Assembly (NCBI GenBank): GCA_016871445.1
Contig: VHDH01000007.1
Location: 1 to 64,000 of the forward strand
Length of the DNA stretch: 64,000 nucleotides
Source: Verrucomicrobiota bacterium
Lineage (GTDB): Bacteria > Verrucomicrobiota > Verrucomicrobiia > Limisphaerales > SXTU01
Reading direction: 5' to 3'
In this document: in pieces, positions 39,446 to 48,922 of the stretch
Position numbering within the stretch: the stretch's first letter is position 1
Layout: each line of letters begins with the position of its first letter
Program-made: the position numbers and the translations under genes
Notes under the pieces: generated by a model
Told to the model about the DNA's origin: nothing
Seen by the model: only the letters and a program-made list of their open reading frames with translations
Databases searched by the model: none

Positions 39446-39578
39446 AAGGGGACGTGCAAATCTCTACCTGAGTGTTGGAGCGGAGTGCGGCGTTTTTCTT
39501 GTGCCCAATGTGAGCGGCTCAACACCGCTGTTGAATAATCCCTCTGCCGCGCCCATCTCCACTTCACTCTTTGCTCGC

Positions 39579-41114
39579 ATGAAACCACGCTCCCCTCAAC
39601 TTGGTCGGCGGCAGTTTCTCCAAGCCTCAGCCACTGCCGCCGCTCTGGTGGCCTGTGAGGCTCAGGCCCAACAAAAGTCCGGCCTAAGCCCTCGACGCAC
39701 GCTCATCGCCGAGGAAAATGCCAAGCCAGGTTCGCTCGACTGGCAACTCACCCGCGTGCGCCTCGACAAGACCGGCGGCACCCGCGCGCCCGCCATTGAG
39801 GGTTACTGCTCGCGCCAAAGCGTAAAAGCAGGAGAGACGCTCGATTTCATGGTCAGCACCAGCCCGAGCGCGCGGTTCATAGTGGAAATTTTCCGCACTG
39901 GTTACTACGGCGGACGCGGTGCGCGGTTGATGCAGACCGAAGGTCCGCTGCGCGGGACAAAACAGCCCGATCCGCCCGTTGGCGAGAATCGCCTCCGCGA
40001 ATGTAAGTGGCAGTCCTCCCTCTCCCTCAAGATTCCTGCGAACTGGGTTAGCGGCGTCTATCTTGCGCGCCTCACGACGGTGCCCGATCAAGCTGGGGAA
40101 CCTTACTGGCAGAGCTATTGCATTTTTATTGTCCGCGACGATCGCCCGGCGGACCTCCTTTTCCAATGCAGCGATAATACCTGGCAAGCTTACAACAAAT
40201 GGCCGGACAGCTACTCCCTCTATACCGACCCGCGCGGTGCGCACGCTGTGGGCACCGAAGTGAGCTTTGATCGGCCTTATGGCAAATATGGGCAGATTTA
40301 CGAGCACCCACTATCCATTGGCTCCGGCGAGTATTTGCTGTGGGAGTTTCCGCTGGCTTACTGGCTCGAGCAGCACGGCTACGATGTGACCTATTGCGCG
40401 AACTTGGATTGTCTCACGGCCGCGCAAATCACGCGCTGCAAAACCTTCCTCAGTGTCGGCCATGACGAGTATTGGGACGTGCGGCAATACGACGCGGTAA
40501 AAAGTGCCATCGCCTCCGGCACGCACGCGCTGTGGCTTTGCGGCAATTCCGTCTTCGGGCGGACTCCGTTTCTGCCAGCCTCTAACGGTCAAGCCAACCG
40601 CATCCTAAAACGCACCGGCATCTACGCCGGCCTGACGGACAAGGAAATCGAGGACGCCATCAGCGTCTTCACCAAGGACTGGCAGCGCGACTCTCGCAAC
40701 GAGGCGGATCTCATGGGCGCGCGTAGCATTGTCCCCTTCAACGGTGGCGGTGACTGGGTTTGCGCGAAGCCAGAGCACTGGATTTTTGAAGGGACCGGAA
40801 TGAAAAAGGGTGACTCCGTGCGCGGCCTCGTTGGCTGGGAACATCATGGCGCCCCGGCCAACCTCCCCGGCCTCGAGGTCGTCGCCGAGGGCACCGTCTG
40901 GCGCGGTGGCACCACGCCCGCGCGTTGGACGGCGACCATTTTCTCCGGTCCGAAGAACAACCTCATCTTCAATGCCGCAACCATTTGGTGGGCACAAGGG
41001 CTCAGCTCGCCGCCGGGCCACATCCTGCCGTGGAGCCATTGGAGCCGCCCGCACGGCCCGGACGAACGCGTGCAACGGATTACACAGAACCTGCTCAAGC
41101 GCTGCGGCGCGTGA
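39579..41114 (+). CDS. Tat-exported N,N-dimethylformamidase beta-subunit-like protein
   Basis: LGRRQFLQASATAAALVACEA signal; TYCANLDCLT...LSVGHDEYWDVRQYDAV; VGWEHHG. Confidence 0.8.
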   Translation: MKPRSPQLGRRQFLQASATAAALVACEAQAQQKSGLSPRRTLIAEENAKPGSLDWQLTRVRLDKTGGTRAPAIEGYCSRQSVKAGETLDFMVSTSPSARFIVEIFRTGYYGGRGARLMQTEGPLRGTKQPDPPVGENRLRECKWQSSLSLKIPANWVSGVYLARLTTVPDQAGEPYWQSYCIFIVRDDRPADLLFQCSDNTWQAYNKWPDSYSLYTDPRGAHAVGTEVSFDRPYGKYGQIYEHPLSIGSGEYLLWEFPLAYWLEQHGYDVTYCANLDCLTAAQITRCKTFLSVGHDEYWDVRQYDAVKSAIASGTHALWLCGNSVFGRTPFLPASNGQANRILKRTGIYAGLTDKEIEDAISVFTKDWQRDSRNEADLMGARSIVPFNGGGDWVCAKPEHWIFEGTGMKKGDSVRGLVGWEHHGAPANLPGLEVVAEGTVWRGGTTPARWTATIFSGPKNNLIFNAATIWWAQGLSSPPGHILPWSHWSRPHGPDERVQRITQNLLKRCGA

Positions 41115-42455: not shown

Positions 42456-42926
42456 TCAAGGCGAATAAGGCAGCGAGGAATGGTGAAGAACGATGCGCAA
42501 CGTTCCCTTCTTGTCTTTCTTATAGCCCCAGCTTTTGTCGACTCTTGTAACTTTACCTTCTTTGTCCGTGAAGCTGACCCAACCCATCCACATGGCTACA
42601 TCACCTTCAATAAAACAGGCGGCGGTTTCTGATTTAACGGAACGCCAGCCTTTGAGGGCGAAGCCTTTGTCGGAGAATTTGGGGTTTTGTCCCACAAAAT
42701 AGGAGAGTGCCCCTTCGCGGGTGGGGCGGAAGGTTTTTTCTCCACTGGTCAAGGTCGGTTTGAACAGAACCGGACCCAGATTGTAGCCGTAGGCTCCGTC
42801 CAAGGCCGCGTTGGCCAGTTTAGTTGCAGCTTCAATTCCCTTGGTATCGTAGGCCTTGGAAATGGCGACCAGCGCGTTACCCCAGATCTTCCGGGCTTTG
42901 GTGAGTTCAGTTTTAGTGACGGGCAT
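42456..42926 (-). CDS. candidate iota-class (COG4337-like) carbonic anhydrase
   Basis: 157 aa; FRPTREGALSYFVGQNPKFSDKGFALKGW and C-terminal HHSSLPY, as recalled for COG4337/iota-CA; gene directly downstream of a SulP transporter. Confidence 0.65.
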   Translation of the reverse strand: MPVTKTELTKARKIWGNALVAISKAYDTKGIEAATKLANAALDGAYGYNLGPVLFKPTLTSGEKTFRPTREGALSYFVGQNPKFSDKGFALKGWRSVKSETAACFIEGDVAMWMGWVSFTDKEGKVTRVDKSWGYKKDKKGTLRIVLHHSSLPYSP

Positions 42927-43031
42927 AGGTATATCTCGTTTTAGTTTTTGGTGGATGTTAGCGAGCGGAAAGTGGGGATGAAGCCGCGACCATGGTCGAG
43001 CGCATCTTTGGACAACGTGGAACTCATTATC

Positions 43032-44621
43032 TTAGTGGGCGGAAGGAGCCGCAGGGGCATCGAAGATTTTGCCGACGAACTCGAGCGTAAGACCCTTATC
43101 CTTGGCCCGATGGACCCGGAAATCCTGAAGCGCCTCGACTACATCGGGATCGACGTAGTAGCTCTTGGTGGCGTCCACTACGATGTGGGTTCCCTTGGGC
43201 ATCCCTCCGAGTTCCTTGAGGACGTTCGCCTTGTGGAGGAAAGTCACGTGCGGCCCGAGTTCCAAGAGTTCATGGTCACCCTCATGCACCGGGCGACGTA
43301 GGGCGTGTTTCAGGTTCTCCCACAAGAGGAAGACAATCGTGAAGATGAGGCCAACCACGACCCCCTTGAGCAGGTCAGTGAAGACCATGGTGAGGATGGT
43401 CACGATGAAGGGCAGAAATTGGGTCCAGCCTGCGTTCCACATTTGTTTGAACGTCTTGGGGTTGGCGAGCTTCCAGCCCGTAATCAGGAGGATAGCAGCC
43501 AAACTTGAGAGCGGGATCAGATTGAGCAGCTTGGGAATCAGGAGCACGCAGAACAGCAAGAGGATGCCGTGGATGATGGCCGAGAGCTTCGTCCTGGCGC
43601 CGGCATTCACATTCGCGCCGGAGCGCACGATGACCGAGGTGATGGGCAAGCCGCCCAGGAGGCCGCTGACGATGTTGCCCAAGCCTTGCGCAAAGAGTTC
43701 CCGATTGGCGGGTGAGTGGCGCTTCTGCGGATCCAGCTTGTCCACCGCCTCCAAGCACAGCAGCGTCTCAATGCTCGCCACGATGGCCAGCGTCGCTGCC
43801 ACGACCCACACTTGGCCATTCGAGATGGAAGACCACAGCGGTTGGCTAAACGCCTTGAGCCAGCCCGCAAAGTTTTCCGGCACCGGCACTTGCACGAGGT
43901 GTTCCGCCTCCGTGATGGCCCAGGACGGCATCGCCACTTTGAAAAGAGCATTCAGCCCTATTCCGGCCAGGACCGCCACGAGCGCTCCGGGCACCACTTT
44001 GAGTTGTTTGACCTTCGTCTTCTCCCAGAAAATGAGAATGGCCAAGCCGGCGAGCGCCACGAAGAGCGCGCCCGGCGTGATGAGGTCGAGATGTTTCGCG
44101 ATCTCGGAGAAGCTGTTTTCCGAGTCGCTGGGCTGGATGAACCGGTCGTCTCCCTCGGGCACTTTGTCGTAGCCAAAAGCGTGGGGGATCTGCTTCAGGA
44201 TGATGATGATGCCGATACCAACGAGCATGCCGCGAATCACGCTGGAGGGGAAATAATTCACCACGTTACCCATCTTCAGCGCCCCCATCGCCAGTTGGAT
44301 GACTCCAGCAAGCACCACCGCAAGCAGAAAAGCCTCAAAAGTCCCCAATTTGCCAATGCTCATCAGCACGATGGAGGTAAGGCCAGCGGCCGGGCCAGTC
44401 ACACTCAGGTGCGAGCCGCTGGCAATGCCAACCACGATGCCCCCGACTATCCCGGCGATGAGACCGGAAAGCAGTGGGGCACCCGAAGCGAGGGCAATCC
44501 CCAAACACAACGGCAACGCGACCAGGAATACCACCACCCCGGCGGCGAAATCCTTCGATAATGAGTCCCCCATCGAATCGGGAGCCGACGGTGCGGGCTG
44601 AGAGGCATTGGTTTTGGACAT
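43032..44621 (-). CDS. SulP family inorganic anion transporter with C-terminal STAS-like domain
   Basis: FAAGVVVFLVALPLCLGIALASGAPLLSGLIAGIVGGIVVGIASGSHLSVTGPAAGL. Confidence 0.93.
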   Translation of the reverse strand: MSKTNASQPAPSAPDSMGDSLSKDFAAGVVVFLVALPLCLGIALASGAPLLSGLIAGIVGGIVVGIASGSHLSVTGPAAGLTSIVLMSIGKLGTFEAFLLAVVLAGVIQLAMGALKMGNVVNYFPSSVIRGMLVGIGIIIILKQIPHAFGYDKVPEGDDRFIQPSDSENSFSEIAKHLDLITPGALFVALAGLAILIFWEKTKVKQLKVVPGALVAVLAGIGLNALFKVAMPSWAITEAEHLVQVPVPENFAGWLKAFSQPLWSSISNGQVWVVAATLAIVASIETLLCLEAVDKLDPQKRHSPANRELFAQGLGNIVSGLLGGLPITSVIVRSGANVNAGARTKLSAIIHGILLLFCVLLIPKLLNLIPLSSLAAILLITGWKLANPKTFKQMWNAGWTQFLPFIVTILTMVFTDLLKGVVVGLIFTIVFLLWENLKHALRRPVHEGDHELLELGPHVTFLHKANVLKELGGMPKGTHIVVDATKSYYVDPDVVEALQDFRVHRAKDKGLTLEFVGKIFDAPAAPSAH

Positions 44622-44711
44622 TCAAAAAACTATGGTGACAGCCGGCGCTTCGGACAAATATAAATTTCCGAACACTCGCTTCGACTTTCCCGAAGCCATG
44701 ACCGCACGCTT

Positions 44712-45611
44712 ATGAACGGTTTGAACTACCACCACCTCCGGTATTTCCATGCCGTCGCCAAGGAGGGCAGCCTCGCCGCCGCCGCCGCCCGGCTTCGCGT
44801 CTCCGCCCCGGCCATCTCCGAGCAAGTGCGCGAACTGGAGACCACCCTCGGCGAACGGCTCTTCCGCCGCGAAGGCCGGGGCAACCGCCTCACCGCGACG
44901 GGCGAGCAGGTCTTCAGCTACGCCGAGGAAATCTTCGCGCTCGGTGCCGAACTGATTTCCACCGTGAAGCAGCAGCCCGGCACGCGCCCGCTGCGCCTGC
45001 ACGCGGGCGTAGTCGATTCCTTCCCCAAAATCCTCACGCTCGAACTCTTCCAACCCGTGCTCGACGCCTCGCCGGACACGCGGCTGATTTGCCAGGAAGG
45101 GCGGCTGGAGGAATTGCTGGTGCAGTTGAACGCCCATCGCCTCGACATCGTGCTCGCGGACGAGCCCGCCTTCAGCACCACGCATCCGCACATCACCAGC
45201 CACTTGCTCGGCACCAGCGACGTCACGTTCTGCGCGCGCCCCGACCTCGCGGCGCAGTTGCGGGGCAATTTCCCCCGCGCGCTGCACACGGCGGCGGCGC
45301 TGGTCCCGGCGGCGCGCACTCCCTTCCGGCGCGCGCTGGAGACGTGGTTCCGCGCCCACCGCGTGCAACCGCGCGTCGTCGCCGAGTGCGATGACCTCGC
45401 CCTGCTGAAGGTGCTGGCGGCCGACGGACGCGGGTTCATCCCGATGCCGACCGTGGCGGCCGAGGAAGCGATGCGGCGCTACGGCCTGGCGGTCGTGGGC
45501 TGCGCGCGCCGTTGCACCGTGAGTTTTCATGCGCTGACCGCCAACCGGCGTGAAATGCACCCCGCCGTCACCTTGCTAACGAACTCGGCCCAGCGCGATT
45601 TGTTCCCCTAA
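44712..45611 (+). CDS. LysR family transcriptional regulator, NhaR-like
   Basis: MNGLNYHHLRYFHAVAKEGSLAAAAARLRVSAPAISEQVRELE; NhaR-type effector domain. Confidence 0.88.
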   Translation: MNGLNYHHLRYFHAVAKEGSLAAAAARLRVSAPAISEQVRELETTLGERLFRREGRGNRLTATGEQVFSYAEEIFALGAELISTVKQQPGTRPLRLHAGVVDSFPKILTLELFQPVLDASPDTRLICQEGRLEELLVQLNAHRLDIVLADEPAFSTTHPHITSHLLGTSDVTFCARPDLAAQLRGNFPRALHTAAALVPAARTPFRRALETWFRAHRVQPRVVAECDDLALLKVLAADGRGFIPMPTVAAEEAMRRYGLAVVGCARRCTVSFHALTANRREMHPAVTLLTNSAQRDLFP

Positions 45612-46119: not shown

Positions 46120-46250
46120 TTTAACGGGCGAACGGGCGAGGGCGCTGGGGAATTTCTACGCGTGCTGGTGAACGGGTCGGCTTGAAGAGATTTCTCGAAT
46201 CTGGTTTCTTGCGCGCAACGGTTCGGGCACTCATACTTAACTCAATCTTT

Positions 46251-46898
46251 ATGAACAAGACTCTTGCGTTACTCGGATGCACGCTGGCTGCGCTGACGCA
46301 GCTTGCATGCGCTGGGGAGAATGATCAGAGACCGGTCAAGAGCCGATCCGCAGGCGACCGGCCCCGCATCTTGCAAGGCACACTTCAGGACGGTGGCGCG
46401 GCGCCGGACTTTGTGCTTCAGGACATCGAGGGGACGAATACGGTGAAGCTCACCGGCCTCAAGGGGAAGCCGGTGGTGCTGATCTTTGGAAGCTGCACCT
46501 GCCCGCCGTTCGTGGCCGCCACGCAAGCCACGCAGACCTTATTCTCCCAATACAAAGACCGCGTGCATTTCCTCCTCATTTACATCCGCGAGGCTCATCC
46601 CACGGATGGCCGCGTGATTCCGGGCAATCAGTTTGTGGTGCAATCACCCACAACACTCGCGGAGCGGCGGGACATCGCGCGTGACTTCGCCAAGCGACTC
46701 AAGGTGTCCATCCCCATCCTGGTGGACGGACCGGATGACAAGGTGTCGGCAACCTACGCGTGCTGGCCCAATCGGATGTATATCCTCGACGCGCAGGGGA
46801 ACATTGCCGACAAAGGCATGGCCGCCCCAGGCGGCACCGCGGCATCCGCCCGGCGCGCCACACAGGTGTTGGATCACTTGCTCCAGGGGAAGCACTGA
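46251..46898 (+). CDS. secreted iodothyronine deiodinase-like / redoxin family protein
   Basis: Signal peptide MNKTLALLGCTLAALTQLACA; PVVLIFGSCTCPPFVAATQATQTLFSQYKDRVHFLLIYIREAHPTDG matches deiodinase active-site block. Confidence 0.85.
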   Translation: MNKTLALLGCTLAALTQLACAGENDQRPVKSRSAGDRPRILQGTLQDGGAAPDFVLQDIEGTNTVKLTGLKGKPVVLIFGSCTCPPFVAATQATQTLFSQYKDRVHFLLIYIREAHPTDGRVIPGNQFVVQSPTTLAERRDIARDFAKRLKVSIPILVDGPDDKVSATYACWPNRMYILDAQGNIADKGMAAPGGTAASARRATQVLDHLLQGKH

Positions 46899-47407: not shown

Positions 47408-48922
47408 TCATAACGCCCAATTCTTCGCCGTCGCTAACTCCTCCTCAAAATCCACAATCTCTTTGATCTGCACCAAGAACCAGCGATCAATCTTCGAGAG
47501 GTTGAAGATCTCTTCGATGGTGAAGCCGGCGCGGAGGGCGTGGCGGATGAAGAAGATGCGTTCGGCGTTGGGCACGCTTAGTTTGCGGCTGATAACGTCG
47601 CGCGGCAGGATGTCCCGGTCGCCATAGACTTCCGTGCCGATGCGCCACGGTTTGCCGTCGCCGCCCAGGCCGCTGCGGCCGATCTCCAGCGAGCGCAGGC
47701 ATTTCTGCATGCTCTCCTTGAACGTGCGCCCGATGGCCATCGCCTCGCCGACGCTTTTCATCTGCGTGGTGAGCGTGGGGTCGGCTTGTGGAAATTTCTC
47801 GAAGGCGAAGCGCGGAATCTTGGTGACGACGTAATCAATGCTCGGCTCGAAGCTCGCAGGGGTATTCTTGGTGATGTCGTTCTTGAGTTCGTCGAGCAGG
47901 TAGCCGACGGCGAGCTTGGCAGCAATCTTCGCGATGGGGAATCCGGTGGCCTTGGACGCAAGGGCGGAGCTGCGGCTGACGCGCGGGTTCATCTCAATGA
48001 TAACCATGCGGCCGTTGTCGGGGCTGACGCCGAATTGGATGTTCGAGCCGCCGGTCTCCACGCCGACGGCGCGGATCACGGCGAAGCTCTGATCGCGCAT
48101 GATCTGAAATTCCTTGTCGGTGAGCGTCTGGATGGGCGCGACGGTGATGCTGTCGCCGGTGTGGACGCCCATGGGGTCGAAGTTTTCGATGGAGCAAATG
48201 ATGACGCAGTTGTCGGCCTTGTCGCGCATCACTTCCATCTCGTATTCCTTCCAGCCGATGAGCGATTCCTCGATGAGAACTTCCTGCACGGGCGAGAGGT
48301 CGATGCCGCGCTTGGCGATTTCCTCGAACTCGTCGCCGTTATAGGCGATGCCGCCGCCAGTGCCACCGAGCGTGTAAGCGGGGCGAATAATGACCGGGAA
48401 GCGGCCAATCTTTTCCTGGATGGCGCGGGCTTCGGTCATGTTGTGGGCGACGCCAGAGATGGGCACATCGAGGCCGATCTTGAGCATCAACTCTTTGAAG
48501 ACGAGGCGATCTTCGCCTTTGTGGATGGCCTCAGGCTTCGCGCCGATCATTTCCACGTCGTGCCGGGTCAGGGCGCCGTTCTTGTTCAAAGCCATCGCGG
48601 TATTGAGCGCGGTTTGTCCGCCAAGGGTGGGAAGCAAAACGAGCTTGCCCTTGGCGCCGAGCTTCTTCATCTCCTCCTTCTCGCGGATGATGATTTTCTC
48701 GACGCACTCGGGCGTGATGGGCTCGATATAAGTGCGGTCGGCGAACTCCGGGTCGGTCATGATGGTGGCCGGGTTCGAGTTCACGAGGACGACGCGGTAG
48801 CCCTCCTCCTTGAGCGCCTTGCAGGCCTGGGTGCCGGAGTAATCGAACTCGCACGCCTGGCCGATGATGATCGGGCCGGCGCCGATGATGAGGACGCTGT
48901 GGATGTCAGTGCGTTTGGGCAT
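47408..48922 (-). CDS. carB: carbamoyl-phosphate synthase large subunit, N-terminal half only (504 aa)
   Basis: [74 protein letters not shown]; ends at [27 protein letters not shown]. Confidence 0.92.

Follow-up and report, generated by a model that had tools for sequence, protein, structure and literature searches.

The role of metal-free iota-class carbonic anhydrases (iota-CAs) outside phototrophs is unsettled, and the locus described here raises the question of what such an enzyme does behind a SulP transporter gene in a Verrucomicrobiota bacterium. The locus lies at 42456–45611 of the 64,000-nucleotide stretch of DNA that was analysed (the window). ORF calling gave the order iota-CA (−), SulP (−) and LysR-type regulator (+). 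The original prediction had placed these genes exactly to the base, and its gaps of 105 bp between iota-CA and SulP and of 90 bp between SulP and the divergent LysR gene are exact by ORF coordinates. We consider it probable that this module is a dissolved-inorganic-carbon supply unit of a non-autotrophic bacterium. The locus would then offer a concrete answer to the question, with the metal-free iota-CA serving as the enzymatic partner of SulP in an inorganic-carbon module.

The small ORF (42456–42926, −) encodes 156 amino acids plus a stop codon. The ORF had been predicted correctly but its length had been given as 157 residues because the stop was counted, and the blocks FRPTREGALSYFVG, KGFALKGW and HHSSLPY were all found in it. 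Its assignment to the iota class, originally made by eye, agrees with profile, structure database and fold comparisons. The NCBIfam model NF047901 (metal-independent carbonic anhydrase) matched residues 3–155 with E=4.4e-63, at a score of 212 bits that is under the 350-bit equivalog cut-off, and a phmmer search of the PDB matched the iota-CAs 7c5x (E=7.3e-74) and 7c5v (E=1.1e-51). Similarity to COG4337 is therefore present. A Pfam search of the protein found no family at E≤1. The AlphaFold (AF2) model, with pLDDT 94.3, has the same NTF2/CaMKII-AD-like fold as 7c5v, a cone-shaped alpha+beta barrel. Foldseek superposed it on 7c5v with a TM score of 0.96, an rmsd of 1.0 Å and 56% identity over 156 columns, and ranked SnoaL, ketosteroid isomerase and CaMKII hubs far behind.

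In all2909 of Anabaena, Thr106, Tyr124, His197 and Ser199 are required for activity and Lys180 is dispensable (Hirakawa et al. 2021, PMC8132391). In the window protein the four required residues correspond by alignment to T58, Y76, H148 and S150, and the protein also has the C-terminal HHSS and the phenylalanines F77 and F89. In an alignment of 31 iota-CA sequences T58, Y76 and S150, the Thr, Tyr and Ser named in the original prediction, were invariant, and H148 was nearly so. Since sequence, fold and active site agree, the protein can be identified as an iota-CA, and on these grounds it is predicted to be catalytically complete. COG4337 enzymes hydrate CO2 without a metal, and their dehydration of HCO3− was not obvious (PMC8132391). 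Judged by its sequence, the window enzyme should also be metal-independent.

The window protein shares its fold, the HHSS motif and the four catalytic residues with all2909 (Anabaena PCC 7120, PDB 7c5v), but it has no signal peptide, its gene sits behind a SulP gene, and its host is not a phototroph by the RuBisCO test. Prokaryotic COG4337 proteins have been predicted to carry signal peptides and are probably periplasmic (PMC8132391), a view that the present locus would qualify. Only two residues precede the domain in the window protein, and none of the in-frame starts further upstream would add a hydrophobic segment. Because it lacks a signal peptide, it is predicted to be cytoplasmic. In the tree it falls into a clade of 60 rows (support 100/100), every member of which is signal-less by a simple hydrophobicity rule. 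The members come from Verrucomicrobiota, Planctomycetota, Acidobacteriota and Alpha- and Gammaproteobacteria. As far as sequence can tell, this clade is a cytoplasmic branch of the iota-CA family.

The transporter (43032–44621, −; 529 aa) matched Pfam PF00916 (Sulfate_transp) at 1.8e-64 and 218 bits, above the cut-off of 23.2 bits. Pfam STAS gave no match at E≤1, and the alignment to 5da0 extends to residue 503. The solved SulP relatives are 6ki1 and 5da0. The original prediction had noted that SulP includes transporters of the BicA type. The family assignment stands, but the protein is not a BicA ortholog. It shares the SulP superfamily with BicA (NF050096, PDB 6ki1) and aligns with it full length, over residues 21–419, but it belongs to a different subgroup and its score of 140 bits is below the cut-off of 880, so that "BicA type" is a statement about the superfamily only. 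A signature diagnostic of bicarbonate transport is absent from the window SulP, which could carry sulfate or another anion.

Relatives of this SulP were searched in 58 genomes of the order and 388 of the phylum. The ten other SulPs found nearest to it (46–55% identity) place it in a Verrucomicrobiota subgroup that is otherwise fused or adjacent to beta-CA. Eight of the ten, 724–794 aa long, are SulP–beta-CA fusions in which both zinc motifs, CxDSR and HxxCG, are present (Pro_CA 2.9e-32 in the L102 fusion). In L128 a beta-CA gene overlaps the SulP start, and L127 has no neighbouring CA of the classes probed. The window SulP and the fusions form one clade (95/95), within which the tree does not settle the branching of the window SulP, L128 and the fusions. 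Simple loss of the beta-CA domain from a fusion ancestor may be the origin of the window SulP. The cluster around a more distant SulP, L132, consists of a divergent NhaR-like LysR, a beta-CA (Pro_CA 8e-46) and SulP, and by gene content it appears to be the window anatomy with another CA class. The SulPs of L133 and L134 adjoin DabA, an inorganic-carbon transporter subunit.

SulP–beta-CA fusions and pairs are described by Felce and Saier (2004/5), as cited in PMC5489568 and PMC2621215, and in PMC8115632. In these systems and in the window, where the two genes lie 105 bp apart on the same strand, SulP is physically coupled to a CA, but the window enzyme is of the iota class, not the beta class, and encoded separately. 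By this comparison the window would hold the known SulP–CA pair with an iota-CA as its enzyme, in an arrangement that its relatives have with a zinc beta-CA. This suggests that CA classes can swap within one transporter module, from zinc-dependent to zinc-free. The L118 (G251) genome has a SulP–beta-CA fusion as well as an unlinked signal-less iota-CA (L012).

The gap between SulP and iota-CA (42927–43031, −) contains no terminator-like site on the strand of these genes, such sites being seen elsewhere only, and co-transcription is therefore allowed. Between SulP and LysR lies a divergent promoter region of 90 bp (44622–44711). A search near the module genes found neither an Rfam element nor a sigma-70 promoter. 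Within the divergent region, a pattern search found the perfect dyad TTCGGA-N12-TCCGAA with an A+T-rich centre (44649–44672, +), a candidate LysR operator. It is the single match in the 64 kb, with 0.13 expected when up to one mismatch is allowed, an estimate that is not independent because the pattern was taken from the sequence itself. We infer that SulP and the iota-CA are co-transcribed and controlled by LysR via this region.

The regulator (44712–45611, +; 299 aa), divergent from the SulP–iota-CA pair, matched the Pfam families LysR_substrate (3e-21) and HTH_1 (1e-20). NhaR was its best-scoring named model (NF008284, E=1e-52). The description as an NhaR-like LysR regulator is thus correct as to family and model, but the score of 179 bits is below the NhaR equivalog cut-off of 219, and no nhaA adjoins the gene. 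Control by pH or Na+ can therefore only be suggested. The LysR of L132 matched the window LysR with E=9e-63 and itself passes the NhaR cut-off with 239.7 bits. At L013:7375-8932, a LysR with 33% identity to that of the window is followed closely by an exported iota-CA, without a SulP gene.

Carboxylations in bacteria depend on HCO3−, which comes from a CA or from a transporter such as MpsAB/DabAB (PMC8552792). In the source genome, which is 95.6% complete, searches for beta-CA, alpha-CA, DabA and the RuBisCO large chain, all four positive in control genomes, gave no match, although incompleteness of the MAG could hide a beta-CA. The iota-CA is present in one copy. The lack of a detected RuBisCO large chain is consistent with the likely heterotroph of the original prediction. 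Its reading of the locus as an inorganic-carbon module gains support from the beta-CA fusions of the nearest SulPs, the recurrence of SulP, LysR and iota-CA together, and the lack of any other CA among those searched. The pair may be the main bicarbonate supply of the cell. SulP would move HCO3− across the inner membrane, and the cytoplasmic iota-CA would quickly convert CO2, diffused in or metabolic, to HCO3−. Together they would maintain the HCO3− in the cytosol on which carboxylases and carbamoyl-phosphate synthase draw. A role in converting CO2 to HCO3− fits with COG4337 enzymes showing no obvious dehydration. LysR would control the pair through the divergent region, probably under low CO2 or under alkaline or Na+ conditions. 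The iota-CA would take the role that the zinc beta-CA has in the sister modules, without a requirement for zinc.

Anion exchange linked to pH homeostasis is another explanation. The iota-CA would make HCO3− and H+ from respiratory CO2, SulP would export HCO3− for sulfate, chloride or another anion, and the NhaR-like regulator would induce at high pH or Na+. It would suit the regulator's best named match, NhaR, and the TM8 acidic residue that aligns to the BicA aspartate, which presumably has a role in BicA, is a glutamate in the window SulP as in 5da0. A SulP–CA pair has been read as a sulfate/carbonate antiporter (PMC2621215), the direction of SulP–CA transport has been left open (PMC5489568), and COG4337 enzymes favour hydration (PMC8132391). 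However, no Na+/H+ antiporter gene adjoins the module, the regulator is below the NhaR cut-off, and a cell without another detected CA or DabA should need a supply of HCO3− first. We regard exchange as unlikely and prefer inorganic-carbon supply.

The supply reading also draws on other genomes, since the neighbourhood survey proposed originally found that SulP, LysR and iota-CA recur together in other phyla. A SulP gene is at most a few kb from the iota-CA gene in L024 (Alteromonadaceae), in L189 and L190 (two genomes from the L041 order sample), in L041 (two SulPs) and in L087 (Planctomycetota), and in L153 it is 3 kb away. The order SulP (−), LysR (+), iota-CA (+) is common to L024, L189 and L190, whose BicA-like SulPs score 519–522 bits. 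A BicA-like SulP also adjoins the iota-CA in L041. In a random-placement test on 48 iota-CA genomes, partly related and with the window excluded, and with a 3.5-kb linkage limit set after the data had been seen, SulP was linked in 3 genomes against 0.16 expected (P=6e-4) and SbtA in 3 against 0.05 expected (P=2e-5), or 6 of the 48 against 0.2 when combined, an excess of about 30-fold. The expectation was taken from the SulP and SbtA gene counts in those genomes; doubling the limit would double it, and the excess would remain. Mapping SulP linkage onto the iota-CA tree takes six changes, and supported branches force at least four of these, which indicates that the pairing arose repeatedly.

Most surveyed iota-CA loci have no adjoining transporter, and the linkage to SulP is not conserved in the closest iota-CAs (L021, L011 and L012). 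The L021 protein is 94% identical; its gene has an IS3-like transposase fragment directly upstream, a KDPG aldolase gene downstream and no SulP (L021:1-843), and it appears to move on its own. The L011 gene (80% identical protein) lies between a P-type ATPase gene and gcvP, directly upstream of gcvP (L011:7208-10823; gcvP was named by eye). gcvP encodes glycine decarboxylase, which releases CO2. The linkage in the window is therefore lineage-specific, and its meaning is drawn from the SulP side and from the recurrence elsewhere. If the genes were chance neighbours, SulP and its LysR would form an ordinary sulfate permease unit, behind which a single mobile iota-CA gene had happened to insert. 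This would suit the solitary closest relatives and the patchy distribution of iota-CA (10 of 286 genomes of the class), but it is very unlikely given the excess of SulP or SbtA linkage, its repeated origin and the CA linkage of nine of the ten nearest SulPs.

The survey also found exported iota-CAs beside SbtA, a bicarbonate transporter of another family. At L018:6667-8271, SbtA (Sbt_1 2e-100) lies 6 bp upstream of an iota-CA of lipoprotein type, and in L076 and L096 SbtA lies within 3.5 kb of an exported iota-CA that also has a LysR gene a few kb away at most. Of the nine linked loci, the SulP-linked iota-CAs were signal-less in 6/6 and the SbtA-linked ones exported in 3/3 (P=0.012). In the whole set, Fisher tests gave P=0.08 for SulP only with signal-less and P=0.06 for SbtA only with exported iota-CAs, the related genomes not being independent. 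This split comes from small numbers and is suggestive. As a tentative and somewhat doubtful generalisation, the cytoplasmic metal-free clade might repeatedly replace zinc beta-CA as the partner of SulP, and exported or lipoprotein iota-CAs might pair with SbtA. These would be two topologically distinct systems, of which the cytoplasmic one could be the sole CA of a non-autotroph. A literature search, with subscription papers largely outside its scope, found no report of iota-CA paired with SulP or SbtA.

Automatic annotation misses such proteins, as they have no Pfam match and did not reach the NCBIfam cut-off in the genomes surveyed. NF047901 gave clear matches in 60 of about 930 genomes, all below the 350-bit cut-off, which was reached in none of 286 genomes of the class, 343 of the L087 phylum and 301 of the L041 order. 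PGAP annotation will continue to leave most COG4337 CAs of bacteria without a name.

At L041:1372-9172 (reversed as L135), in a Sphingomonadales MAG, the order is carA, iota-CA, SulP, BicA-like SulP and carB. The CA and bicarbonate transporters thus sit between the subunits of carbamoyl-phosphate synthase, which consumes HCO3−, an arrangement absent from the other surveyed iota-CA loci. The window itself has the N-terminal half only of CarB (47408–48922, −; 504 aa), which stops in the oligomerisation domain. A second CarB-like ORF is absent from the window, and carB is therefore split or truncated. The general link between iota-CA and carAB that these two cases suggested was rejected, as similarity to carA or full CarB was found only in L041 among the surveyed iota-CA loci; two other loci gave weak ATP-grasp-like matches only. 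The window also encodes a thioredoxin-fold protein (46182–46898, +) whose top Pfam match, in this bacterial host, is iodothyronine deiodinase (PF00837, 4.5e-28), and a large secreted-type protein (39501–41114, +) with an RR N-terminal motif and a domain like the beta subunit of N,N-dimethylformamidase (PF20254, 9e-80).
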